NCBI GenBank assembly: GCA_017999835.1
Contig: JAGNLA010000011.1
Coordinates: 1 to 54,015, forward strand
Direction of reading: 5' to 3'
DNA length: 54,015 nucleotides
Source: Caldisericia bacterium
GTDB taxonomy: Bacteria; Caldisericota; Caldisericia; JAAYUI01
Under the pieces are notes generated by a model. It had not been told where the DNA came from. It ran no database searches and was given only the letters and a program-made list of their open reading frames with translations. This document shows positions 27,316 to 40,734 of this stretch, one piece after another; within the stretch, counting starts at the first letter, position 1, and each line of letters begins with the position of its first letter. A program made the position numbers and the translations under genes.

Positions 27316-27383
27316 CAAATCATTTTTCCAGCAATATAATCTGTTTCTTAAACTGGAATTGTACTTAAAATGTATTATCCTTG

Positions 27384-30071
27384 ATGAAGATGAAAAAGCT
27401 TGCGGTTTTAATCTCAATTATGATGTTGATCTCAAATGTATCGGCTGTCAGCGCTGACATCCTGATCTGGAGAATGGCTGGCGGAACGCCACAAAGAGAA
27501 GGTATGTTTACGTCAATGCCTCAGCCGCCGCTGACTTTGCTGTGGCAGACAGAAACGGGACTGGAGATATATGGCTCGGTGCTTACCGATGGCCAGAAGC
27601 TCTTTGTTGCAGGAAATACCAAACAAAATGGCGTTTTTACGTGCCTGGATTGGCAGACTGGCAACTCAGAGTGGAATAAGGATTTTGGTGGCAAATGCCT
27701 CTCTTCCCCTGTAATCTCCGACAACGGTCTCTCTATCGCTTCAACTGACGGACGAATTTATGGTGTTGGGATCGATGGTAAAACGGCATTTTCGGTAAAA
27801 ACGCCGTTTGAAACCTGCACGGCGAAAGCAGATCCATTGGATACTGGTGTAAACCTCATTTATTGCCTTGAGGATTATGGAGCTGGAGTTTTTGCTGTCA
27901 ACCCAAAAACCAACGATAAATCCTGGGAAGTCATACGAAATTCTTCTGGTTATGTCAAAACCAGTCCGTGCGCAGATTCGGGTCTTGTGTTTGTCGCGTA
28001 TAACGATGACGTGGTCAACGCAATCAGGGAAGATGACAACAAAATTGCCTGGGAAAAGGTTGTTGACGATGGGATAACAGGAAACCCAATCATCTGCAGT
28101 GGTAGAATTATTTTCCCAACCCGCAAAGGTGCTCAGTCATTAACTTCTGACAATGGCGTTCTTTCATGGTCTGTGGAGTTTGAGGATAATTTCCATCCAT
28201 ATACGACACCGGCCACAGATGGCAGACTACTTTTTTTTAGTACATCAAACAGGATTTACGCCGTTGACTCACAATCTGGACAAATACAGTGGTCCCAGAA
28301 GTTTGAAAATGTACTTGAATCGGTTTCTTCTCCATCGGTTGCTTCGGGCATGGTGTGTGTTCATGATGGCAAAACCTGTTATTTCTTCCAAACTGAAACT
28401 GGCGAATTGTTGGAAAGATTTCAGGTCAACCCGAATTCTGCTAGCTCAAACATTATCGGTCAGCCATTGGTTTTGTGGGACAGAATCGTTTTTGCTTCGA
28501 CAAACGGAACACTGTTTTGCTGGGGGATTCTCGGTGACAACCCAAATCCTGATCCAAAACCTGATCCCGAGCCAGAACCACCGAAGGAAGAGCCAACGCA
28601 AAAATCGACATTGAAAATCAATGCTCCAGAAAAAGCATACCTGGGTGAGATGGTTGAAATCCCAATAGAACTGATAGATGCGAAGAATTGGACTAACGGC
28701 CAGTTTGTATTTGTGTTTGACAATTCGAAACTGGAATTTCTTGGAGTAAAACCAGGAGAAATGCTGACAAGCCAGAACACTACGCTTGAATTAAAAGCAG
28801 AACCAAACGATTTTGGCGTCAACATTACCGTTTCAATCACAAAAATCGATGGAATATCAGGCAATGGCGTTTTAGCCTACATTGCCCTCAAACCAAAGGA
28901 AACTGGCATGCACAATCTCACAATCATCGATGCCAAAATGACTGACACAAACAACAAAACCCATGAACCGAACATCGAGCCTGATTCGTTTATTGTTGAG
29001 GAGAAACCTCAGCCCGAGCCGGAGCCTGAACCCGAACCAGAACCCGAGCCAGAGCCTCCAGTGGAATTTGAACTTGAGCCAAAAACAACTGATCTTGGTG
29101 TGCTTCTATCGGCAAGGAGCGTTGAGCTGACGCTTGTCCAGAGAAATGGTCAGGTCAACAGTTTTGTGGTCAGATCTTCGGGCGACTATGGCGATTATTC
29201 GCCAAAAACTGGAACAATCCAACCAAACTCAACCCAGAAGATAAACGTGACTGTCAACCCGAAGGACTTAAAACCTGGCGATTATGAATTGGTCGTCTCA
29301 GTCAACATCTTGGACAAGACCCTGACTTCAAACATCAAGTTCAAAATCCCGGAGCAACAATTACCACCATGCATAGACATCCTCCCCGGTTTCCTTGATT
29401 TCGGATATATCCCCAGAGGTCGAGAGGTTTCAATCAATTTCATTATCAGCCTTGACATTGAAGAGGAAATTTCAGGCGTCATCGAGACCGACAAGCAATG
29501 GCTGAAGGTTTCACCTGTTGTCTTTAAGACAAGATCAAAAAGGATTGAGGGCATTGCAACAATCTCGGCATCGGAGCTTCCGGGTGGAGATTCCTTTGAA
29601 GGCCACCTGATGATCAAGACAAAAAATAACGTTTGCAGGGAAGTGAAAGTGCTGGCCAAGGTAAAAACCCAGCCATCGATTCTGCTTGAAATGGACATCG
29701 GCGTCCCGAGTGCAACGATTGCGTCGCTGACTGTACCGCTTGACTCTCCTCCGTTTATCAGAAACAACAGAACGCTTGTGCCAATCAGGTTTGTGTCCGA
29801 GGCTTTCGGCTGCAAGGTTCAGTGGGAAGCATCTTCCAAAAAGATAACCATCTCCAGATTCTCCGACTCAATAACACTGTGGGTTGGGCAAAAACAGGCT
29901 CTTGTCAACGGTCAGGAAGTCAATCTTGACGTTGCTCCTTCGCTTGAAAACTCAACAACGTTTGTTCCAATCAGGTTCATCTCCGAGGCTTTCGGAGCAA
30001 AGGTTGAGTGGTTCTCTGAAACAAGACACATCAAAATAACCTATACCCCGCCTGATGACTTTAATCCATGA
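27384..30071 (+). CDS. Secreted PQQ-like propeller protein with cohesin-like and stalk domains
   Basis: The 895 residues begin with a signal peptide (MKMKKLAVLISIMMLISNV). Residues about 35-385 are propeller blades ('GRIYGVGIDGKTAFSVKT', 'YAVDSQSGQIQWSQKF'). After a Pro/Glu/Asp linker, residues about 405-535 (APEKAYLGEMVEIPIELID, FVFDNSKLEFLG, ISGNGVLAYIALKP) resemble a type I cohesin. A (PE)n linker follows, then two Ig/BACON-like beta domains. The C-terminal 110 residues carry two stalk motifs of the LVPIRFVSEAFGCKVQWE type. It is probably a surface or extracellular scaffold. ATG 27384 has TATTAT five bases before it and no ribosome site; a TTG at 27381 is less likely. Confidence 0.8.
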   Translation: MKMKKLAVLISIMMLISNVSAVSADILIWRMAGGTPQREGMFTSMPQPPLTLLWQTETGLEIYGSVLTDGQKLFVAGNTKQNGVFTCLDWQTGNSEWNKDFGGKCLSSPVISDNGLSIASTDGRIYGVGIDGKTAFSVKTPFETCTAKADPLDTGVNLIYCLEDYGAGVFAVNPKTNDKSWEVIRNSSGYVKTSPCADSGLVFVAYNDDVVNAIREDDNKIAWEKVVDDGITGNPIICSGRIIFPTRKGAQSLTSDNGVLSWSVEFEDNFHPYTTPATDGRLLFFSTSNRIYAVDSQSGQIQWSQKFENVLESVSSPSVASGMVCVHDGKTCYFFQTETGELLERFQVNPNSASSNIIGQPLVLWDRIVFASTNGTLFCWGILGDNPNPDPKPDPEPEPPKEEPTQKSTLKINAPEKAYLGEMVEIPIELIDAKNWTNGQFVFVFDNSKLEFLGVKPGEMLTSQNTTLELKAEPNDFGVNITVSITKIDGISGNGVLAYIALKPKETGMHNLTIIDAKMTDTNNKTHEPNIEPDSFIVEEKPQPEPEPEPEPEPEPEPPVEFELEPKTTDLGVLLSARSVELTLVQRNGQVNSFVVRSSGDYGDYSPKTGTIQPNSTQKINVTVNPKDLKPGDYELVVSVNILDKTLTSNIKFKIPEQQLPPCIDILPGFLDFGYIPRGREVSINFIISLDIEEEISGVIETDKQWLKVSPVVFKTRSKRIEGIATISASELPGGDSFEGHLMIKTKNNVCREVKVLAKVKTQPSILLEMDIGVPSATIASLTVPLDSPPFIRNNRTLVPIRFVSEAFGCKVQWEASSKKITISRFSDSITLWVGQKQALVNGQEVNLDVAPSLENSTTFVPIRFISEAFGAKVEWFSETRHIKITYTPPDDFNP

Positions 30072-30453: not shown

Positions 30454-31584
30454 TTACTTCCCGAAACAATAAACGTTTGCGTCGTTGCAGCCAATGATTA
30501 TCTTGTTGCCTGTAATTATCGGCGATGACCATATGCGGTCGCCTGTCTTGTACGACCACAGTTTTTCGCCTGTAATGGCGTTGAAGCAATAAACATAGTT
30601 ATCTTCGGAGGCAAACCAGACCATTCCGTTTGAAACGGCTGGACTGCTGATAATCCTGCGCATGACTCCGGTGTCGTACGCCCATTTTTGAACACCATTT
30701 CGAGCGTCAAGACAATAGAAGTAACCGTCGTTGGCGCCAAAGTAAATGTTATTTCGCCATATCGATGGTGAGCTTTCCTGGTTTGTACCTATATTTTTTA
30801 CCCATTTTTCTTTGCCGGTCATCATGTCATGGCAGTGCATCTTGCCTTCATAGGTACTGAAAAAAAGTTGGTTTTCTACAACAACTATTGATGTTGTAAT
30901 TGAGCCTGATGTTTGTATCGAGCTTGTTTGTTTGCCTGTGTCTATGTCGATGAGCTTGAGAGTCCCATCGGCGCAGCCTAAAACAAGGTTTGTCCCAAAA
31001 AAAGCCGGGCATCCTCTCGATGAACTGCCGATAGATTTTGCCCATATGATTTCACCATCATTAAGGTTGAGTTTGTAGAATTCGTTCTGGGGACTGCCGA
31101 CACAGAAATAAACGTAATCGGTGTCTACGGTTGGAATTGAAATCTGACCTGAAGGTTTGAATGTCCATATTTGGTCGCCTGTGTTCTGGTCAAGACAGAA
31201 GAGGGAGGGCTCTTTGGTTACGAAAACCACTTTGTCTTTTGTGAGTGCAGCAGGGGAAGTTACTTCATCGCTTGTGTCGTAATTCCAGATTTCCTGACCG
31301 GAGGATTGATCGATGCAATGAAACTTTTTGCCAATCGAACCAACAAAAATCTTGCCGTTGCGCGAGACTGGTGTCTGGATGACGGCACCGGAAGCTGCAA
31401 ATTTCCACAAAAGATCAAGCTGGGAGTCTGGTGGTGCGCAATGTGAATTCTCTATACCGGTGTTTTGCTGGTTGGCGCGAAACATTGTCCAGCCCTGGCA
31501 AGTTGAGGTTGTATTGTCTTCCATGCTGGGACCGCAACCAGCAAGCATGATAAGACAGATTATGGCAATGACTATACGTTTCAT
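30454..31584 (-). CDS. PQQ-binding-like beta-propeller lipoprotein
   Basis: ATG 31584 starts MKRIVIAIICLIMLAGC, a lipoprotein signal with lipobox L-A-G-C; the product has 376 residues. The rest is about seven propeller blades with the repeated pattern 'FHCIDQSSGQEIWNYDT', 'FCLDQNTGDQIWTFK', 'YCLDARNGVQKWAYDT', 'YCFNAITGEKLWSYKT'. It resembles BamB-type and other PQQ-like propellers, but cofactor binding is not implied. A TTGATT-16-TAATAT promoter ends seven bases before the ATG, with no ribosome site. Confidence 0.88.
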   Translation of the reverse strand: MKRIVIAIICLIMLAGCGPSMEDNTTSTCQGWTMFRANQQNTGIENSHCAPPDSQLDLLWKFAASGAVIQTPVSRNGKIFVGSIGKKFHCIDQSSGQEIWNYDTSDEVTSPAALTKDKVVFVTKEPSLFCLDQNTGDQIWTFKPSGQISIPTVDTDYVYFCVGSPQNEFYKLNLNDGEIIWAKSIGSSSRGCPAFFGTNLVLGCADGTLKLIDIDTGKQTSSIQTSGSITTSIVVVENQLFFSTYEGKMHCHDMMTGKEKWVKNIGTNQESSPSIWRNNIYFGANDGYFYCLDARNGVQKWAYDTGVMRRIISSPAVSNGMVWFASEDNYVYCFNAITGEKLWSYKTGDRIWSSPIITGNKIIIGCNDANVYCFGK

Positions 31585-31591
31585 AAAAACC

Positions 31592-31619
31592 ATATTAAGG
31601 GCAATTGTCGGCAAATCAA
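31592..31619 (-). promoter_or_regulatory. Promoter of the propeller lipoprotein gene (leaderless arrangement)
   Basis: On the minus strand, TTGATT (31614-31619), a 16-base spacer and TAATAT (31592-31597), then seven bases to ATG 31584. Confidence 0.55.
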
Positions 31620-31627
31620 CATATGAA

Positions 31628-31656
31628 AACACCCCCTGGTTTGGTCAGGGGGTGTT
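31628..31656 (-). terminator. Terminator of the cysteine-rich repeat protein gene
   Basis: Eleven-base perfect stem AACACCCCCTG/CAGGGGGTGTT with a seven-base loop. On the minus strand it continues into TTTTC. It lies 22 bases past the stop. Confidence 0.88.
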
Positions 31657-31677: not shown

Positions 31678-34600
31678 TCAGTTGCAGTTGATCGAAGTTA
31701 CCGAAACCACAGTAAAACTGATGACGCCAGATGATTCTTTCGGTTCGATATTTGCGGTGATCCTGAAACATTTGCCAACCAGCAGCAGATCGCACAAACC
31801 ATCTTTGCCCATTTGTATCTGCACTTTTTTGCCAGTTTTTATTTCAGTGGCAACAACAGTCGGTGGCGAAACCCAGCAATGAACCTCAGAAACCTTGACT
31901 TCCATTGTGTAAGTCTTTGGTTCAGTCGATGAGCATGGGCAATCCTTATCCTCGATAGATGTGACCTTGATTGTGATCCATGAGGTATTGCCGTCTGCAA
32001 TTTTTCTTCCGCAAACTTTGTAGCAGGAGCCAGCTTTGAGTTTCTTGCAGAGTTCATTGTCGGGGGCGTGGAGCATGTACATTGTGCCTGAAACATCGGT
32101 TACGAAAATAACTCTTGGACTGTTGGAGCATTCAACTTCCTTTATCTGAATACACCAACAATCTTCCTCGGGCTCTCCGCATGGGCAAGGAACGTTTTCC
32201 CAGGAGGTTGACCTGAAGATGGTTTCGCCTGTGGCAAGCTGCTCGAAATTTCCGCAAATCCTGTAGCATTTGCCTTGCTCAAGTTTTCCACATGCTTCGG
32301 CTGATTTGAGATAGACTGTGAATGTCTTGCCGTTTGTATCTACAACATAAGCTTTTGGTTGTGCTGCGCTGCATTCTGTAGAGCGAAGGGTGATGCACAT
32401 GCATGTTGGTTCCTGAGCTGGGCATTCTCCGTCAATCATATCTACCGTCTCAACTTTCATGGTTGGTGGGTTGACTGAGGCGATGGTGCCACAAACCTTG
32501 AAGTTGCTGCCAACGGCAAGCATGGAGCAGAGTTTTTGATCGGAAAAAGTAAGATTCCACGTTACACCGGCAGAATCGGTGCCTGTTGCATAGTTCTGTT
32601 CACAAAGAACGGACGTGATTTTTAGACAAACACATCTTGTCTGTGTCGGTGGCTCTCCGCATGGGCATTCTTCTTGCTCAAGTTTTGTGACATTGAATTG
32701 AACCTGTGCCGAATCAGTGTTGGCAATCGGTGTTCCGCAGACTGTCCAGCATGTGTCTGGCTTGATCTTCTCGCAGTATTCAAGGAGGTTTGTTGGTAGC
32801 ATGAGGAGCATTTTTCTGCCGTTCTTGTCTTCGACGTAGACTTTGCCGGCATCACAGTTGCTTTCGACGGTTTTAACGGTTATGCAGAAACAACGGTCTT
32901 GTTCTTCAGGTTGGCAGTCGCAGTTTTCATCTGGTTTGATGGTTCTGATTTTGATGGCGTTGTCGGCAGATTTGAAGCCTGTGATGATCCAGCATGTGCC
33001 TTCTTCAAGCTTTTCACAAAGATCTCTGTTTGGGAGGAAGCAGGTCCAGATTATGTCCTTGCCAACGACATTTGCTGTGAATTGTGGAATATCCTTGTCG
33101 CAATTGACCTCGAGGATTTTTACGCACAAAGTGATTGTCTCGGGTGTGCTGGAGCAATCACATCCATTGATAATGAGTTGGGAATCGGCAAGAAGCTGGA
33201 TATATGCGCCCTTTACCTTTTTGAAATAACAAAGTTTGAGACAATCACCAGCTTTAATGTCCTTGCAAAGATCGGTGCTGTCAAACAAAAGCTTCCAGCG
33301 TTTTCCATCTCCATCGGCGACGATGGCTACCTTGTTGTCGCAATTGATTTCAACGACTTTGAAACAAACACAGTCTTTAACAATTTCTTCTTCTGGTGGC
33401 GGTTCCTGGCAGCAGTCCTTCACGTCAGGATAGGCAGCCCATTTGACAACCTTGTCGTCTTTGATGCAGAGTTTTGCGCATCCTGAATATTGTGAGATCG
33501 GGAACACGCCCGAATCATCAAGCAGATCAGTTTCGGAGATGTATTTCTTGCCTTCATCTATTGGGCAGTCATCAAAAATGACTACCCACTGCTTTGCGTT
33601 TTCGCTATAGGTGGTTTTCTGCAGCCTACCCTTTATCCACTTGCAGTCGTCCGCCTGTGGGCAGCATTCCTGATCTGGAAGCGCGGTCCATTTTGAGATG
33701 AATCTGCCTGTGAAACAGATTTCAGCGCAACCTGTGTACTGAGAGATCGGATACTTGCCGGTGCTGTCAAGCAAATCTGATTCGGAATAGAGCTCTAGTC
33801 CCTTCTCTTCGTTGCATGGAACAAAAACCACTACCCAGCGTTTGGTTTTTTCGTTGTAGATTGTTTTTGTTATCTTGCCTTTTATGGTTTTGCATGGCGT
33901 TTCTGGGCAGCATTCACCTTCTGGCAACGCCTTCCATGAGACTATGAACCTGTCTTTCCAGCAGATTTCGGCACAACCTTTGTACTGGGAAATCGGATAT
34001 TTGCCTGTCGAATCGAGAATGTCGGTTGCTGCGTATGGTTCTATGCCTTCACCTGCACAGGTCTTGAACTGGATGACCCAACGCTTTCCGTCTTCGTTAT
34101 ACTTCACTTCTTTGATGTAACCTTTTACGGGTTTGCATGGGGTTTCTGGGCAGCACTCCTGGTCTGGAAGCGCTGTCCATTTGACTACGATTCTTTCCTT
34201 GATGCAGACTTCGGCGCAACCTGTGTACTGTGAAATTGGATATTTGCCTGTGCTGTCAAGCAGGTCAGTTGTGCTGTAGAATTCTTGTTCTTTCTCGTAA
34301 CCACACTGCATGAAATAGACAACCCAACGCTTTGAATCCTCGATGTATTTGGTCTTGGTTATTTTGCCTTTAAACGTTTTGCACTCGTCTGTGCCTGGGC
34401 AGCAGTCCTTTTTGTCAGGATAGGCTATCCACTTGGTTATCTCGCCATCTTTGACGCAAACCTTGGCACAGCCTGTGTATTTGAGAATGCTGTGTTTTTT
34501 GTTCTCATCCAGCAGGTCGCTTTTTACCATCACTGTAGTTTCTTTTGTCACACCGTCTTTGCAGAGTGTGAGGGTTATTGCCCAGATTTTATCGGAAATG

Positions 34601-36225
34601 GCTTTGAAACCTGTAATTTTGACAGTCCACCATTCGCAATTGGTGGTTGCTGGGTTGCAGCAGTCCTTTAGTTCTGGCAGAGCGTACCATTTGACAATCT
34701 TTCCTGCTGCGTCAACGCAGATTTTTGCGCATCCTGTGTATCTTCCGATTGGGATTTTCTTGTTCTCATCGGCAAGGCTGTAGTCAGCAAGATACTTGAC
34801 AGCATCAGCGGCTTCCTTGCCGTCCTTGCAGACAAACGTGTAAACGCTTGCCGGAAGGGCAACTGTTCCAGCTGGTGGTTGTTCAACCTTTTGAATCCTG
34901 ACAAGCAACCAGTTGCATTCAACTGTGTCACAGCACTGATCGGTGTCAATTTTTCTCCATGAAACAACATTTTTGTTGGCGTCGACGCAGATTGCTGCAC
35001 AGCCGTCGTACTGGTCAATGGATACTCCTGTTGGATCCTTGAGGAGTTCCTTGAGTGTGAAGTCTATGGTTGCGTTGTCAATTGGGCAGGCGTCGAAGGT
35101 AAGCACCCAAAGGGTTTGGCTGGAGAGCAATACTTTTGAAACCTTGACGATCTTGCCTTTAACTTCTTTGCATTCTGTTGTTCCTTCGCAGCATACTGCG
35201 TTTGGATAGGCTTTCCATTGCTTGATCTGGTTTTTGACAATGCATAGTTCAACACAGCCCTTGTATTGAGAGATTAGGTATTGGCCTGTCGTGTCCTTTA
35301 CGTCTCCAACGGCTACGGCTGTCATGGCATCACCTGTGCAAGGCTTGAATTCAACCTTGAACCCGTTGATGGCAGTAAGCGTTGCTGTTATGGCTGAAAC
35401 CGAAACTATGTTTCCCTTGACCCAGTCACATTCGTCACAGTCTGGGTTTGAAAAGTACAGAATAATCGTTTTTGTTTCGCCAAACCATTTGACTGGATCA
35501 GTTGAACCAAGATTTTCAACGACAAACCTGAACGGGACAAGAGTCCTCCCGTTGACGATGATCGGCGTGACCAGAGGATTGTTTGGGTCGATTTGAACTT
35601 TCTTACCGTCAACTGTTGCATCCTTGTTGCCAATCTGCAGCTTTATGACGTGGCCGTCACGGGTGGTGATGATTACTGTTTTGTTTGTACCATCCCAGTC
35701 GAGTTTTGTGCCTTTGATTTCGTTTGTAACATATTTTATAAGGATGAGAGTTCTCTCCCATTTTACGATTGGTGCTGCTTCCATTGGACCTTTTTGAACG
35801 CCGTTGACCCAATAGTTTTTGTTGTCGATTTGGAACTTCAACTCTAGTTTGCACTCGTCACGCTCGAAGCATTTTGGTGTTGCGCATGCTTCATTGGATT
35901 TCATGAACTCAGCGGCAGAGGTATTGACTGCTGTAACGTAGTAGCAATACTGCTTTCCGTTTTCAATGCCTGTCTCGTCCTTGTATGATGTTTCTTTGAT
36001 AGGGAAATCGGTCAGAGGCTGTTTTTCTTCAAGTCCAGGGCCTGTGCCTCTGTAGATCCAGTACCTATCGGCTCCGGTCACAGCCGTCCATGACAGTTGG
36101 TTGTAGCCGCAGCCACCATTTGCTGTGAGCAAAAACGATTCCTCGGCAATAGCCCCTGTTGACTGTGGAATCAGGGTGAAAGCCATAAAAGCGCACATGG
36201 CCAGCAATATCCATCGTTTCATCAT
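31678..36225 (-). CDS. Giant secreted cysteine-rich repeat protein with Fn3-like and stalk domains
   Basis: ATG 36225 follows GGAGG by five bases (an ATG at 36222 is equally close) and opens a signal peptide (MMKRWILLAMCAFMAF); about 1515 residues. Order of domains: an Fn3-like domain (about 30-125), a copper-amine-oxidase-type stalk domain (TLVPFRFVVENLG, about 130-260), then eight ~84-residue repeats with six conserved cysteines each, then seven ~80-residue repeats with up to eight cysteines. Cysteine content is extreme, which suggests many disulfides or metal binding outside the cell. I recognise no family for the repeats. It is a single-gene unit with its own TATAAT and terminator. Confidence 0.85.
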   Translation of the reverse strand: MMKRWILLAMCAFMAFTLIPQSTGAIAEESFLLTANGGCGYNQLSWTAVTGADRYWIYRGTGPGLEEKQPLTDFPIKETSYKDETGIENGKQYCYYVTAVNTSAAEFMKSNEACATPKCFERDECKLELKFQIDNKNYWVNGVQKGPMEAAPIVKWERTLILIKYVTNEIKGTKLDWDGTNKTVIITTRDGHVIKLQIGNKDATVDGKKVQIDPNNPLVTPIIVNGRTLVPFRFVVENLGSTDPVKWFGETKTIILYFSNPDCDECDWVKGNIVSVSAITATLTAINGFKVEFKPCTGDAMTAVAVGDVKDTTGQYLISQYKGCVELCIVKNQIKQWKAYPNAVCCEGTTECKEVKGKIVKVSKVLLSSQTLWVLTFDACPIDNATIDFTLKELLKDPTGVSIDQYDGCAAICVDANKNVVSWRKIDTDQCCDTVECNWLLVRIQKVEQPPAGTVALPASVYTFVCKDGKEAADAVKYLADYSLADENKKIPIGRYTGCAKICVDAAGKIVKWYALPELKDCCNPATTNCEWWTVKITGFKAISDKIWAITLTLCKDGVTKETTVMVKSDLLDENKKHSILKYTGCAKVCVKDGEITKWIAYPDKKDCCPGTDECKTFKGKITKTKYIEDSKRWVVYFMQCGYEKEQEFYSTTDLLDSTGKYPISQYTGCAEVCIKERIVVKWTALPDQECCPETPCKPVKGYIKEVKYNEDGKRWVIQFKTCAGEGIEPYAATDILDSTGKYPISQYKGCAEICWKDRFIVSWKALPEGECCPETPCKTIKGKITKTIYNEKTKRWVVVFVPCNEEKGLELYSESDLLDSTGKYPISQYTGCAEICFTGRFISKWTALPDQECCPQADDCKWIKGRLQKTTYSENAKQWVVIFDDCPIDEGKKYISETDLLDDSGVFPISQYSGCAKLCIKDDKVVKWAAYPDVKDCCQEPPPEEEIVKDCVCFKVVEINCDNKVAIVADGDGKRWKLLFDSTDLCKDIKAGDCLKLCYFKKVKGAYIQLLADSQLIINGCDCSSTPETITLCVKILEVNCDKDIPQFTANVVGKDIIWTCFLPNRDLCEKLEEGTCWIITGFKSADNAIKIRTIKPDENCDCQPEEQDRCFCITVKTVESNCDAGKVYVEDKNGRKMLLMLPTNLLEYCEKIKPDTCWTVCGTPIANTDSAQVQFNVTKLEQEECPCGEPPTQTRCVCLKITSVLCEQNYATGTDSAGVTWNLTFSDQKLCSMLAVGSNFKVCGTIASVNPPTMKVETVDMIDGECPAQEPTCMCITLRSTECSAAQPKAYVVDTNGKTFTVYLKSAEACGKLEQGKCYRICGNFEQLATGETIFRSTSWENVPCPCGEPEEDCWCIQIKEVECSNSPRVIFVTDVSGTMYMLHAPDNELCKKLKAGSCYKVCGRKIADGNTSWITIKVTSIEDKDCPCSSTEPKTYTMEVKVSEVHCWVSPPTVVATEIKTGKKVQIQMGKDGLCDLLLVGKCFRITANIEPKESSGVISFTVVSVTSINCN
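31681..33372 (-). repeat. Seven tandem type-B cysteine repeats (protein level)
   Basis: Seven units of about 78-82 residues. The common pattern is C-x-C, then EVxC, a strand rich in V/G, LC-x2-L-x2-G-x-C-x3-C-G, and a closing C-P-C or similar. The spacing of short strands suggests a small beta-barrel (OB-like) fold, which is inference. The last unit is the most degenerate and lacks the first C-x-C. Confidence 0.8.
33409..35438 (-). repeat. Eight tandem type-A cysteine repeats (protein level)
   Basis: Eight units of about 81-90 residues. Each has an initial Cys followed by KGxI, WVVxF-x2-C, the most conserved block DLLDSTGKYPISQYTGCAEIC, then KWxALPDxECC. Units 5-8 are most alike; units 1-3 have diverged. 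Conservation is stronger in protein than in DNA, so the expansion is not recent. Confidence 0.88.
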
Positions 36226-36262: not shown

Positions 36263-36374
36263 GTGAAAAAGTCATAATATTGCACACCGGTGGTTGACAT
36301 TTTATTTACACGATCATTGTTGTTTGGTGATTTGAGCTTTACCCCCATTTTTTCTGGCTTGTTTTAACAGCCAC

Positions 36375-36409
36375 TTGACAAAACTCAAAAAAAGATTATT
36401 CTTAATAAT
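36375..36409 (+). promoter_or_regulatory. Promoter overlapped by a PerR/Fur-type inverted repeat
   Basis: TTGACA (36375-36380), a 16-base spacer and TATTCT (36397-36402). The 15-mer ATTATTCTTAATAAT (36395-36409) covers the -10 box and is a 7-1-7 inverted repeat matching in six of seven arm positions, the geometry of PerR/Fur boxes. It probably mediates autorepression by the PerR-like protein encoded immediately after. Confidence 0.72.
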
Positions 36410-36416
36410 AACTATT

Positions 36417-37025
36417 ATGAATATGAATAGAGGTACAAGAGATTCAATTCAAAGAAAGGTTATTGAGGAATACCTGGTTGGGAACAATGCCCATCCAACG
36501 GCCATGGAGATTTTCAATCATGTCAGAACAATAATGCCGAACGTTTCGATTGCAACGGTTTACAGAAATCTGGCAATTCTTGTAGAATCTGGTAAAATAC
36601 AACGGATAGACACAGGAGCAAAATCGAGATTTGATTGCAAGACGGAATGGCATTTTCATATATTTTGCCAGATTTGCGGGAAAATAACGGATGTGGAGCA
36701 CGTAAAAATACCAAAAGAATACTTCAACATTCCAGATGGGTTTGAATTGAAAGGATGCAATTTGGAAATAATCGGTGTTTGTCCGCAGTGCAAAGCAAAA
36801 AAAGACAAAGAACCTATTGACTATTACTCCAAGGAGCTTCTCATGGCAATGATGGATGAAAAATCCTTGCCGTGTTCGCAGATAGCCGCTCTGACTGGAC
36901 ACCATCCCCAGTCGGTCAACGGCAAACTCAAAAGCTTGGTAGAAAGAGGATTGGTATTGGTGCCCAAGAAGGGGATCTACAAAATTTCAAAAAAAGGTTT
37001 GCAATGTCTAATGGAGGAGAAATGA
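36417..37025 (+). CDS. PerR-like regulator with extra C-terminal winged-helix domain
   Basis: ATG 36417 (or 36423) gives about 202 residues; earlier starts fall inside the promoter. The Fur-family core has helix VSIATVYRNLAIL and PerR-type ligands: H in AHPTAM, D in RFD, WHFH, and Asp in GKITDVE, plus zinc pairs CQIC and CPQC. Usual PerR proteins end near residue 145. Here about 60 further residues (SKELLMAMMDEKSLPCSQIA, then HHPQSVNGKLKSLVERGLV) look like a second winged helix. It heads rubrerythrin, desulfoferrodoxin and ferritin genes with a 4-base overlap, so it is the likely peroxide sensor of this module. No ribosome site is visible. Confidence 0.88.
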   Translation: MNMNRGTRDSIQRKVIEEYLVGNNAHPTAMEIFNHVRTIMPNVSIATVYRNLAILVESGKIQRIDTGAKSRFDCKTEWHFHIFCQICGKITDVEHVKIPKEYFNIPDGFELKGCNLEIIGVCPQCKAKKDKEPIDYYSKELLMAMMDEKSLPCSQIAALTGHHPQSVNGKLKSLVERGLVLVPKKGIYKISKKGLQCLMEEK

Positions 37026-37597
37026 AAGAAATAAAAGGAACACAAACAGAAAAGAATCTCTTGAAATCGTTTGCTGGCGAGTCACAGGCCAGAAACAGGT
37101 ACACCTTCTTTGCGTCAAAAGCTCGCGAAGAAGGCTACATCCAGATTTCGCTCGTTTTTGAAGAAACAGCCAATCAGGAAAAGGAACATGGAAAGAGGTT
37201 TTTCAGCTATCTCCAGGGTGGCGATGTAGAAATCACAGCATCTTATCCAGCCGGCAAAGTTGGTACAACCCTGGAAAACCTCACCGAAGCAGCAAATGGA
37301 GAAAACATGGAACAATCATCCATCTATCCGGAGTTTTCAAACGTTGCCAGGTCAGAAGGTTTTGAAGAAATCGCAACGTTGTTTGACATGGTCTCGGTTG
37401 CTGAAAGAAATCACGAAAGACGCTACAGGGCTTTGGCTGAGAATGTCAAACTTGGCAAGGTGTTTAAAAGAGATGGAAAGATTGTTTGGCGCTGCATCAA
37501 CTGTGGTTTTACCCATGAAGGAATTGAACCGCCAAAAGTTTGTCCTGCATGTCTACACCCGCAGTCTTACTATGAAATCCGTGGCGAGAATTGGTAA
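37022..37597 (+). CDS. rbr: Rubrerythrin
   Basis: ATG 37022 overlaps the regulator's stop (ATGA) after GGAGGAG. The 191 residues have the diiron four-helix bundle with FAGESQARNRYTFFA, EETANQEKEHGKRFF and VAERNHERRYRAL as E-x2-H type ligand helices, and a C-terminal rubredoxin domain with CINCGF and CPAC. It reduces hydrogen peroxide to water in the cytoplasm of anaerobes. An upstream frame extension into the regulator gene has no merit because the family start matches MKEIKGTQTEKNL. Confidence 0.97.
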   Translation: MKEIKGTQTEKNLLKSFAGESQARNRYTFFASKAREEGYIQISLVFEETANQEKEHGKRFFSYLQGGDVEITASYPAGKVGTTLENLTEAANGENMEQSSIYPEFSNVARSEGFEEIATLFDMVSVAERNHERRYRALAENVKLGKVFKRDGKIVWRCINCGFTHEGIEPPKVCPACLHPQSYYEIRGENW

Positions 37598-37627
37598 TAG
37601 TCAACAAATAAAAAAAGGAGAATAAAG

Positions 37628-38011
37628 ATGGCAAAAAAACTTGAAATCTTTAAGTGCGAATTGTGCGGACACATTGTGGAAGTCTTGCATGAAGGTGGCG
37701 GGACGCTGGTTTGTTGTGGGCAACCCATGAAGGCTATCAGCGAAAACTCAACAGACGCTGCACAGGAAAAACACGTTCCCGTTGTTGAAAAAAAGGACGA
37801 TGGAACACACATCAAAGTCGGCTCGGTGGCTCACCCAATGACGCCAGATCACCACATCGAATGGGTTCAGATGATCACACCGGAAGGTTATTCGTGCAGA
37901 GTATTCCTTGAACCTGGTCAAAATCCGGAAGCAGTTTTCAAGATGAAACCTGAAAAGGGAAAAGCCAGAGAATATTGCAATCTTCACGGTCTTTGGAAGA
38001 ACGAGTTTTAG
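37628..38011 (+). CDS. dfx: Desulfoferrodoxin (superoxide reductase)
   Basis: The 127-residue protein has the N-terminal desulforedoxin iron site (CELCGH, later CCGQPM) and the C-terminal catalytic iron site with His ligands in [22 protein letters not shown] and the Cys-His of EYCNLHGLW. It reduces superoxide to peroxide without making oxygen, and rubrerythrin then removes the peroxide. AAGGAG precedes the ATG. It lies 30 bases after rbr and 15 before the ferritin gene. Confidence 0.97.
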
Positions 38012-38026
38012 TTTTGGAGGAATCAG

Positions 38027-38563
38027 ATGATACCAGAACCAGTAAAAGCGATAATCAACGAACAGATAAAAAACGAGTTTGAATCAGCTTATCTCTATCT
38101 CTCAGCTGCAGCGTGGTTTCATGCCCATAACCTCGAAGGCATGGCTCACTGGATGAGGGTTCAGGTTCATGAAGAAACAATCCATGGAATGAAGTTCTTA
38201 GACCATATCAACGACAGAGGTGGATCTGTAAAACTTCTGGACATGAAACAGATCAAGACTGACTGGCAATCAGCAAAGGAAGTGTTTGAGGATGCACTTG
38301 CCCATGAACAGTTCATCACTGATTGTATCAACAAGATTATGAAAGTGGCAAGAGACAATAACGATTATGCCTCCGAACCGCTTCTGCATTGGTTTGTAAA
38401 CGAACAGATAGAAGAGGAAGCCAACGTAACAAAAATCCTTGAAGAGCTCAAGAAAGTTGGCGACAACCAGAACGGTTTGTTCCTTCTGGATAGAGAGCTT
38501 GGAACGAGAATGTGGCCAGCAGGCTCATGTTATAACCCAATCAATTACAACTTAGTGGCATGA
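38027..38563 (+). CDS. ftnA: Ferritin
   Basis: The 178-residue protein is a non-haem ferritin: NEQIKNEFESAYLYLSAAAW, VQVHEETIHGMKF (ferroxidase Glu and His residues), and FVNEQIEEEANVTKILEEL. It stores iron and removes Fe2+ that would react with peroxide. GGAGG lies eight bases before the ATG. It is last in the perR-rbr-dfx-ftn unit, followed by a strong terminator. Confidence 0.96.
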   Translation: MIPEPVKAIINEQIKNEFESAYLYLSAAAWFHAHNLEGMAHWMRVQVHEETIHGMKFLDHINDRGGSVKLLDMKQIKTDWQSAKEVFEDALAHEQFITDCINKIMKVARDNNDYASEPLLHWFVNEQIEEEANVTKILEELKKVGDNQNGLFLLDRELGTRMWPAGSCYNPINYNLVA

Positions 38564-38581
38564 TGTTTTGACTTGAAACAG

Positions 38582-38614
38582 GGGGGCGTTAACCGCCCCC
38601 TTTATTTATTTTTT
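38582..38614 (+). terminator. Terminator after ferritin
   Basis: GGGGGCG (38582-38588) pairs with CGCCCCC (38594-38600), loop TTAAC, followed by a T-rich tract interrupted by two A's. Confidence 0.88.
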
Positions 38615-38636
38615 GGTCGTTGCTATTCTTTCACCT

Positions 38637-39440
38637 ATGGAGACAAAACTCGAACAGTTTAACAAAAAACGCGACATGCTCAACGGAATCCTTTCCAGAC
38701 ACATGGGTCGAAACATGAAACAATTCATGGATCTGGATTGGAGAACATATTCCGGTGGAGCTGTTCCAGAGAAATATAAAGAATTGATGGGTCTTGTGGC
38801 GTCATTGGCGCTTCGCTGCGATGACTGCATCAACTATCACATCAGCCAGTGTCTCAAGCTTGGCGTCACAGATGAAGAATTCGAGGAGACTTTGGCGATT
38901 GGTCTTATTGTTGGTGGTTCGATAACCATTCCGCACATCAGAAGGGCTGTCGAGGTTTGGGATGAGGAAACAAGTCCAAAGGTCAAGTTGTTCGCTCAAC
39001 TGGACGTCAAAGTCGATGAAATATTGAAAAATGAAGCTGCACCAACAGAAAAACTGCAATCCATCTGCAATCTGATGGTTGACAATGTTTCTCATTATAA
39101 CTGGTTTGGATTCTACATGACCGATTCGGCTGACGACAAAATGTTGGTTCTTGGGCCATTTACCGGTGAATCGACTGATCATGTCAGGATTCCATTCGGG
39201 AAAGGTATCTGTGGCCAGGCAGCCCAGACAGGTTCGACCTTTCTTGTCGATGATGTGACAAAAGAAAACAACTATCTTTCATGCTCAATAAACGTTAAGT
39301 CTGAGATAGTTGTGCCAATTATAAAAAATGGCAGAGTCATTGGCGAACTCGACATTGACTCACATCAAGCCGGCGCATTCGATCAATACGATAAAAAGTT
39401 CCTTGAGTCAGTTTGTGACAAGCTTCTTGTGATTCTTTGA
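38637..39440 (+). CDS. AhpD-like / GAF (free-Met-sulfoxide-reductase-like) fusion
   Basis: ATG 38637 gives 267 residues. Residues about 30-115 are a carboxymuconolactone decarboxylase/AhpD-like domain with the redox motif RCDDCINYH (C-x2-C-x3-H). Residues about 125-267 are a GAF domain close to free methionine-(R)-sulfoxide reductase: YNWFGFYM, MLVLGPFTGE, VRIPFGKGICGQAA, NNYLSCS, SEIVVPI and GELDIDSH. Two cysteines (GIC, LSC) match fRMsr positions, but the residue before VRIP is His rather than Cys, so the activity is uncertain. It probably reduces peroxides or oxidised methionine. TATTCT lies seven bases before the ATG and there is no ribosome site, right after the ferritin terminator. Confidence 0.8.
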   Translation: METKLEQFNKKRDMLNGILSRHMGRNMKQFMDLDWRTYSGGAVPEKYKELMGLVASLALRCDDCINYHISQCLKLGVTDEEFEETLAIGLIVGGSITIPHIRRAVEVWDEETSPKVKLFAQLDVKVDEILKNEAAPTEKLQSICNLMVDNVSHYNWFGFYMTDSADDKMLVLGPFTGESTDHVRIPFGKGICGQAAQTGSTFLVDDVTKENNYLSCSINVKSEIVVPIIKNGRVIGELDIDSHQAGAFDQYDKKFLESVCDKLLVIL

Positions 39441-39463
39441 TTTTTTAACGTACATTGGTTATC

Positions 39464-39480
39464 ATTACATCTGTTGTAAT
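39464..39480 (+). promoter_or_regulatory. Inverted repeat upstream of fprA
   Basis: ATTACA-TCTGT-TGTAAT, perfect six-base arms with a five-base spacer, lies 18 bases before ATG 39499. A possible operator; no clean promoter is seen around it. Confidence 0.4.
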
Positions 39481-39498
39481 TGAGAAAGCAGGTGAAAC

Positions 39499-40734
39499 AT
39501 GAGCGGTCATTTCAAAGCTTCAAAGATTTCTGACAATGTGCATTGGGTGGGAGCCATCGACTGGACTATAAGAGATTTCCATGGTTACAGCACACCAAGA
39601 GGAACAACTTACAATTCGTACCTTATCACTGGCGAAAAGAACATTCTTATTGACACCGTGAAGAAACCATATTGGGACGAGATGATGAGCAGGATCTCAT
39701 CAGTCATCGATCCAAGAAAAATAGATATAATCATATCAAATCACGCCGAGATGGATCATTCGGGATCGCTTCCGGAGACAGTCAAGTTTATCCAGCCGGA
39801 AAAGGTTCTTGCTTCGGTCAAAGGCGTTGAGGCTCTCACAGACCAGCTCCACCCGGATTTCCATATTGAATCGGTTGCAGATGGCCAGAAGATGGGTTTT
39901 GGCAATTTCGAACTCGATTTCATGGAAACCAGGATGATTCACTGGCCGGATAGCATGTTCACGTTTATGACAGGCGAGAACATTCTTTTCTCCCAAGATG
40001 CTTTTGGAATGCACTATGCCACTTATGAAAGATTCGACTATGAGCTTGATGATTCTGTGCTCAAGTGGGAAGCGGCAAAGTATTTTGCAAACATCGTCAT
40101 GCTGTTTGCTCCGGTCATCAAAAAAATCATCGACAAGGTTATTCAGACCGGTTGGCCGATAAGGCTGATTGCTCCTGACCATGGGCCGATCTGGAAACGA
40201 GACATTGGCAACATTATAGACCAATACAACAGATGGTGTACACACAAACCAACCAACAAAGCGGTTATCGTGTTTGACACCATGTGGAACAGCACGTCTC
40301 TGATGGCAAGGGTTATCGGTGAAGGTATCAGAACGGGCGGCATGAAAGCAAAACTTCTCCCACTTTCAGTTCTTCAGAGAGCCGACATTGCAACCGAGAT
40401 TCTCGACTCAGGTGCGCTGCTTGTTGGCTCACCAACCCTCAACAGACTGATGTTTCCGACTGTTGCCGACACGCTCAATTACCTCAAAGGCCTCAAGCCC
40501 ATCAATCTTGTTGCTGGCGCGTTCGGTTCTTATGGTTGGAGCGGCGAGGCTGCAACTGACATTCATGAAACATTGAAAAGCATGGGTCTGGAAGTACTCC
40601 CGGAACCTCTGAAGTTTAAATTTGTCCCTGATGATGCAGCGTTGGAGAAGTGCTTCAGCTGGGGTCTGGAAGTTGCAGAAGCGATGAAGGTTTCATGCGA
40701 CAGAGAAAGAGGCTGTGATGTCGGAAGAATTTGA
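39499..40734 (+). CDS. fprA: A-type flavoprotein FprA (flavodiiron oxygen/NO reductase)
   Basis: The 411-residue protein has an N-terminal metallo-beta-lactamase diiron domain with ligands in [10 protein letters not shown] (H-x-E-x-D-H), [18 protein letters not shown] and APDHGPIWK. The C-terminal flavodoxin domain has [15 protein letters not shown] for FMN phosphate binding and [13 protein letters not shown]. It reduces O2 to water or NO to N2O. AGGTGA precedes the ATG. Its 3' end overlaps hrb by 17 bases; together they match the fprA-hrb pair known from Moorella. Confidence 0.97.

Follow-up and report, generated by a model that had tools for sequence, protein, structure and literature searches.

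The window, i.e. the whole stretch of 54,015 nucleotides from a Caldisericia bacterium that was analyzed here, carries on its minus strand a gene for a cysteine-rich repeat protein, followed by a gene for a beta-propeller protein (Table 1). An earlier note on this DNA had described the former as a secreted protein of 1515 residues with 15 cysteine-rich repeats of two types and roughly a hundred cysteines. The coordinates and repeat counts were confirmed, and we counted 104 cysteines, 97 of them from residue 266 onward. The reading frame of 1515 codons starts with MMKRWILL; the mechanical open reading frame begins 41 codons earlier, at position 36348. The signal peptide, the Fn3-like domain and the stalk domain claimed in the note were also recovered, the first by eye, the second by a weak match. 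In the sequence searches with the window protein, the stalk domain was the sole match above cut-off, and its 73.3 bits against a cut-off of 24.2 place it in PF07833. The Fn3-like region in locus L029 matches Pfam fn3 at E 0.0034, which is under the cut-off.

Divergently from the repeat gene runs a set of oxidative-stress genes (36375-40734, plus strand), encoding a Fur family protein, rubrerythrin, desulfoferrodoxin, ferritin, a CMD+GAF protein and a protein with a beta-lactamase fold (ODP family) and a flavodoxin part. Elsewhere in the window, an exported protein of 896 residues (27381-30071, plus strand) combines a BamB-like propeller with a Cohesin domain (PF00963, E 5.2e-11) and a stalk domain.

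Table 1. The repeat gene, its domains and its downstream neighbor. Positions are those of the window.
Feature	Residues	Position	Strand	Evidence and remarks
Whole gene, 1515-aa exported Cys-rich protein with predicted OB-fold repeats		31678..36225	-	ORF and translation
Signal peptide, MMKRWILLAMCAFMAFTLIPQSTGAIA	~1-27	36145..36225	-	Read from the sequence; without visible lipobox
Fn3-like domain	37-115	35881..36117	-	phmmer to 3mpc_A, E 0.0011 (weak)
Stalk domain PF07833 (Cu_amine_oxidN1)	140-256	35458..35808	-	Pfam E 1.8e-20, 73.3 bits
Eight A repeats, predicted OB-like, 6 Cys each	266-346, 352-432, 437-523, 530-609, 615-692, 697-773, 778-855, 861-939	33409..35430	-	Profile and AlphaFold2 model
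Seven B repeats, predicted OB-fold, 4-8 Cys	950-1026, 1030-1106, 1110-1191, 1196-1270, 1273-1351, 1354-1433, 1436-1515	31681..33378	-	Profile and AlphaFold2 model
BamB/PQQ-like beta-propeller gene, downstream neighbor		30454..31632	-	Lipobox-like start LAGC; 45-bp gap

Repeats and their predicted fold

All eight A repeats (residues 266-939) contain exactly six cysteines in the pattern C, C, C-x3-C, CC, and the seven B repeats (residues 950-1515) contain, in order, 8, 7, 8, 6, 8, 8 and 4, so that the description of eight six-cysteine repeats followed by seven with up to eight cysteines holds. Profiles built from these same copies recovered all of them, at E-values of 3e-24 to 1.5e-36 for A and 7e-24 to 3e-33 for B. 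Since the profiles also found additional copies in other genomes, the repeats are taken to be real and not due to chance. Recent amplification was rejected as their origin, the closest A copies being about 71% identical at the DNA level and no two different B copies matching each other. A comparison of the A and B profiles with hhalign was not significant (probabilities of 1.8% and 7.5%); the two types have a similar predicted fold, and the same cysteine pair, one N-terminal and one at strand 4, covaries in each of them.

An AlphaFold2 model of B5-B6, made from an alignment of 21 repeat pairs, had a mean pLDDT of 92.4 and the strand order b1-b2-b3-a-b4-b5. Structure comparison gave VIA Z scores of 10.9 to an SSB and 10.3 to PriB, and of at least 5 for 805 out of the 1000 chains listed, while Foldseek linked the model to two-OB proteins (E 2.5e-5). 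Among the listed matches, the closest solved folds were SSB, PriB, RPA and the anticodon domains of tRNA synthetases, at identities of 7-20%, i.e. a likeness at the level of fold. The corresponding model of A6-A7, from an alignment of eight rows, had a mean pLDDT of 90.7. It matched the OB domain of RecO with a VIA Z score of 8.6 (66 residues at 2.4 A) and a silver chaperone of the periplasm with one of 8.1; its best Foldseek E-value, 1.4e-3, was weaker than that of B. Both models have a low pTM (0.65 for B5-B6 and 0.55 for A6-A7), which makes the angle between repeats uncertain.

By sequence, profile searches with the A repeats gave no OB match, and searches of PDB sequences with A and B profiles gave no meaningful match. 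The B array of a family-mate (L024, genome G001) reaches 58.6 bits against PF01336, whose cut-off is 27; the window protein scores 16.2 bits, under that cut-off. The B repeat is thus an OB-fold as judged by the profile match in the family-mate and by the model, and the A repeat is an OB-like fold as modeled, forming a five-stranded barrel with weaker matches than B. The earlier note recognized neither repeat family and took a compact fold with no family match as a sign of novelty. A compact fold is indeed predicted for both types, and the window repeats go unnamed by sequence, but neither type is left without a known fold. A fold is thereby given to a set of unannotated Caldisericia proteins.

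Pairing of the cysteines

Cysteine pairing was analyzed on 52 aligned B-type repeats of this genome, with the presence of cysteine scored per position. The alignment includes Cys-poor paralogs from the open frames of L032 and L033, two giant stalk proteins encoded on other contigs of the same genome (L032:2456-9202, minus strand, contig C17; L033:2572-9351, minus strand, contig C26). With 2249 and 2260 residues, these consist mostly of B-type OB repeats, one being Cys-rich (137 Cys in the open frame) and the other Cys-poor (59), and the two therefore make a natural series for such an analysis.

Given as both, first only, second only and neither, the counts were 43/0/0/9 for C11-C38 (Fisher p 2.7e-10), 41/1/3/7 for C46 and the C-terminal cysteine after strand 5 (p 7e-6) and 25/11/0/16 for C1-C50 (p 1.5e-6). 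The 11 cases of an N-terminal cysteine alone arise partly because the scoring window catches the last cysteine of the preceding repeat. Between C11 or C38 on the one hand and C46, C50 or the C-terminal cysteine on the other, the association in the same 52 repeats was near zero. The identical three pairs recur among 31 repeats of a second genus, a replicate that is not fully independent, as some of its proteins seem to be orthologs of those analyzed first. For the A repeats, C1-C60 gave 20/3/0/8 (p 2e-5). As repeats share ancestry, all these p-values overstate independence.

The B repeats of the window with fewer than eight cysteines were also inspected. B2 is without C1 and C50, B4 without C46 and one of the two cysteines at its C-terminus, and B7 without C1, C3, C50 and its last cysteine; these losses fit whole pairs. 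The pairing scheme leaves one cysteine of B2, Cys 1062, without a partner. Paired loss thus supports putative disulfides C1-C50, C11-C38 and C46-C74 in B and C1-C60 in A. By elimination, C3 would pair with C76 in B. In A, the other two pairs would be made up of C27, C56 and the terminal CC. Each barrel is probably held together by cysteine pairs of its own, in most cases three or four. The loss of cysteines in matched pairs across the B-type paralogs suggests that they act as disulfides and not in heme or metal clusters, which fits the earlier description of the protein as disulfide-stabilised: the repeats are predicted to be compact, and their cysteines look paired by covarying loss.

Distribution and gene neighborhood

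The A profile matched in 11 of the 49 sampled Caldisericia genomes, distributed over four of the six families, with no match in the sampled genomes of families f2 and f4. B-type repeats were found in 5 out of 61 genomes, 12 of which lie outside the class, and all five belong to family f1. A contig scan with the A alignment gave matches in four Caldisericia MAGs. Among the genomes sampled, the A and B repeats were found only in Caldisericia.

Orthologs in family-mates have 17 B repeats and a single, C-terminal A repeat, with a length of about 1800 residues and 148 cysteines in three complete copies; a further ortholog, in G002, is split at contig ends. As the window array instead has eight A repeats followed by seven B repeats, number and order differ among orthologs, which indicates that the arrays turn over. 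The next gene after the repeat gene encodes a BamB-like propeller lipoprotein in all five genomes (the window and four family-mates), and these propellers share 28-29% identity (E ~1e-60). The oxidative-stress genes do not adjoin the orthologous repeat gene in the family-mates. Control by the adjacent Fur-family gene, a neighbor likewise absent there, was considered and is not supported.

Two further stalk proteins were observed. One, on contig C23 of the same genome (L034:3349-6861, plus strand), has about 1170 residues (1184 in the open frame) and, in its middle, HG and DTCHAG motifs that by eye are reminiscent of caspase-like peptidases. The other, in genome G008 (L030:487-4707, plus strand), is an Fn3-stalk protein of 1406 residues, in which one A-like repeat is followed by about 12 copies of another repeat with a core like GTTISVYDSNG..VWxGQTNxxGYYETS.

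Possible roles and related systems

The signal peptide and the stalk domain point to export, probably by Sec. Behind its Fn3-like and stalk domains, the protein would hold a semi-rigid, rod-like string of 15 OB-fold barrels outside the membrane, every barrel stapled by internal disulfides. We favor, with moderate confidence, that this string is an envelope fiber or adhesin resistant to proteases and denaturation. Gain and loss of repeats could tune its length and surface, and its assembly or anchoring may take place beside the BamB-like propeller lipoprotein, the product of the downstream gene. OB-folds would here serve as a tandem exported scaffold. A position at the cell surface, and hence a surface fiber, is plausible; the envelope of Caldisericum is itself unsettled, with an outer-membrane-like layer without BamA (PMC4104836). 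Our search of the literature on tandem OB-fold adhesins and on the function of stalk domains found nothing.

Against the fiber stand the unpartnered Cys 1062 and the outcome of searches for known disulfide oxidases: VKOR was found in none of the sampled Caldisericota, DsbB in none of seven genomes and a DsbA of the Thioredoxin_4 type, the one DsbA family searched (as distinct from DSBA, PF01323), not in this ~93% complete genome. CcdA (DsbD_TM) is present, with three thioredoxin-like genes directly upstream (L051:76-2133, plus strand, contig C9 of the same genome) whose products bear N-terminal export signals and CxxC motifs. According to a 2025 paper, obligate anaerobes tend to keep cysteine out of the proteins that they export (PMC12453122). 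This uncultured anaerobic lineage, with arrays of more than 100 cysteines behaving as disulfide pairs, runs opposite to that trend. As a tentative and rather doubtful extension, Caldisericia might make such exported proteins in bulk, each with 100-150 cysteines in about 50 to 75 structural disulfides, and oxidize them by a route not yet recognized (CcdA together with the exported thioredoxins, or else an unknown oxidase). Tandem OB-folds laced with disulfides would then serve as an envelope or adhesive fiber specific to this lineage. With cysteine arrays and none of these three oxidases found, the oxidation of exported proteins in anaerobes becomes testable on a defined repeat substrate.

The same CcdA row with its exported thioredoxin-like proteins, together with the divergent Fur-family, rubrerythrin, desulfoferrodoxin and ferritin genes, could instead suggest a redox buffer or electron sink, in which the cysteine pairs outside the cell would switch back and forth between the thiol and the disulfide state. 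We regard this as improbable, as the pairs occupy conserved positions in the fold, as in structural disulfides, and as the oxidative-stress genes do not accompany the ortholog in family-mates. Still less probable is the metal- or heme-binding array raised by the earlier note, in which the cysteines would be ligands, even though some 100 of them in an anaerobe without recognized oxidases, and the match of the A repeats to periplasmic metal-binding OB-folds of the CusF/SilF type, speak for it. The 1515 residues contain no CxxCH motif, unlike a multiheme cytochrome, and only four histidines, and cysteines are gained and lost pairwise, not in threes or fours, with C11-C38 varying independently of the others; the idea was rejected on these counts. 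Unlikely, if less so than these two, is that the open face of each barrel binds nucleic acid or oligosaccharide and that the string traps extracellular polymers. Both the solved folds closest to B and the name of the family matched in a family-mate, OB-fold nucleic acid binding domain, lend themselves to this. However, that likeness is one of fold, OB-folds bind many things or nothing, and the mature protein is acidic (pI ~5.3, net charge -23, single repeats from -4 to +3).

Regarding known systems, PF01336 (tRNA_anti-codon) resembles B in that the family-mate array scores above its curated threshold and the strands are predicted to follow in an identical order, while the repeat protein differs in being exported, Cys-rich, tandem and acidic overall, and in its window copy falling under the cut-off. 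The A model resembles the CusF/SilF chaperones, small periplasmic OB-folds (VIA Z 7.5-8.1); these are single domains with a metal site of another kind, and no sequence similarity to A was found. TIMP/netrin-like modules are animal extracellular OB-folds that start with C-x-C and form disulfides from those cysteines. They are absent among the 50 listed fold matches of the B model, which does not exclude a TIMP likeness, and no PDB chain matched the repeats meaningfully by sequence; the resemblance is probably convergent. Closer to home, the large B-type paralogs of the same genome match DUF1344 (PF07076), above cut-off in L033, and DUF5666 (PF18914), under cut-off in L032. The Cys-rich A and B repeats match neither family. 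The B repeats could plausibly derive from paralogs of the DUF5666/DUF1344 type.
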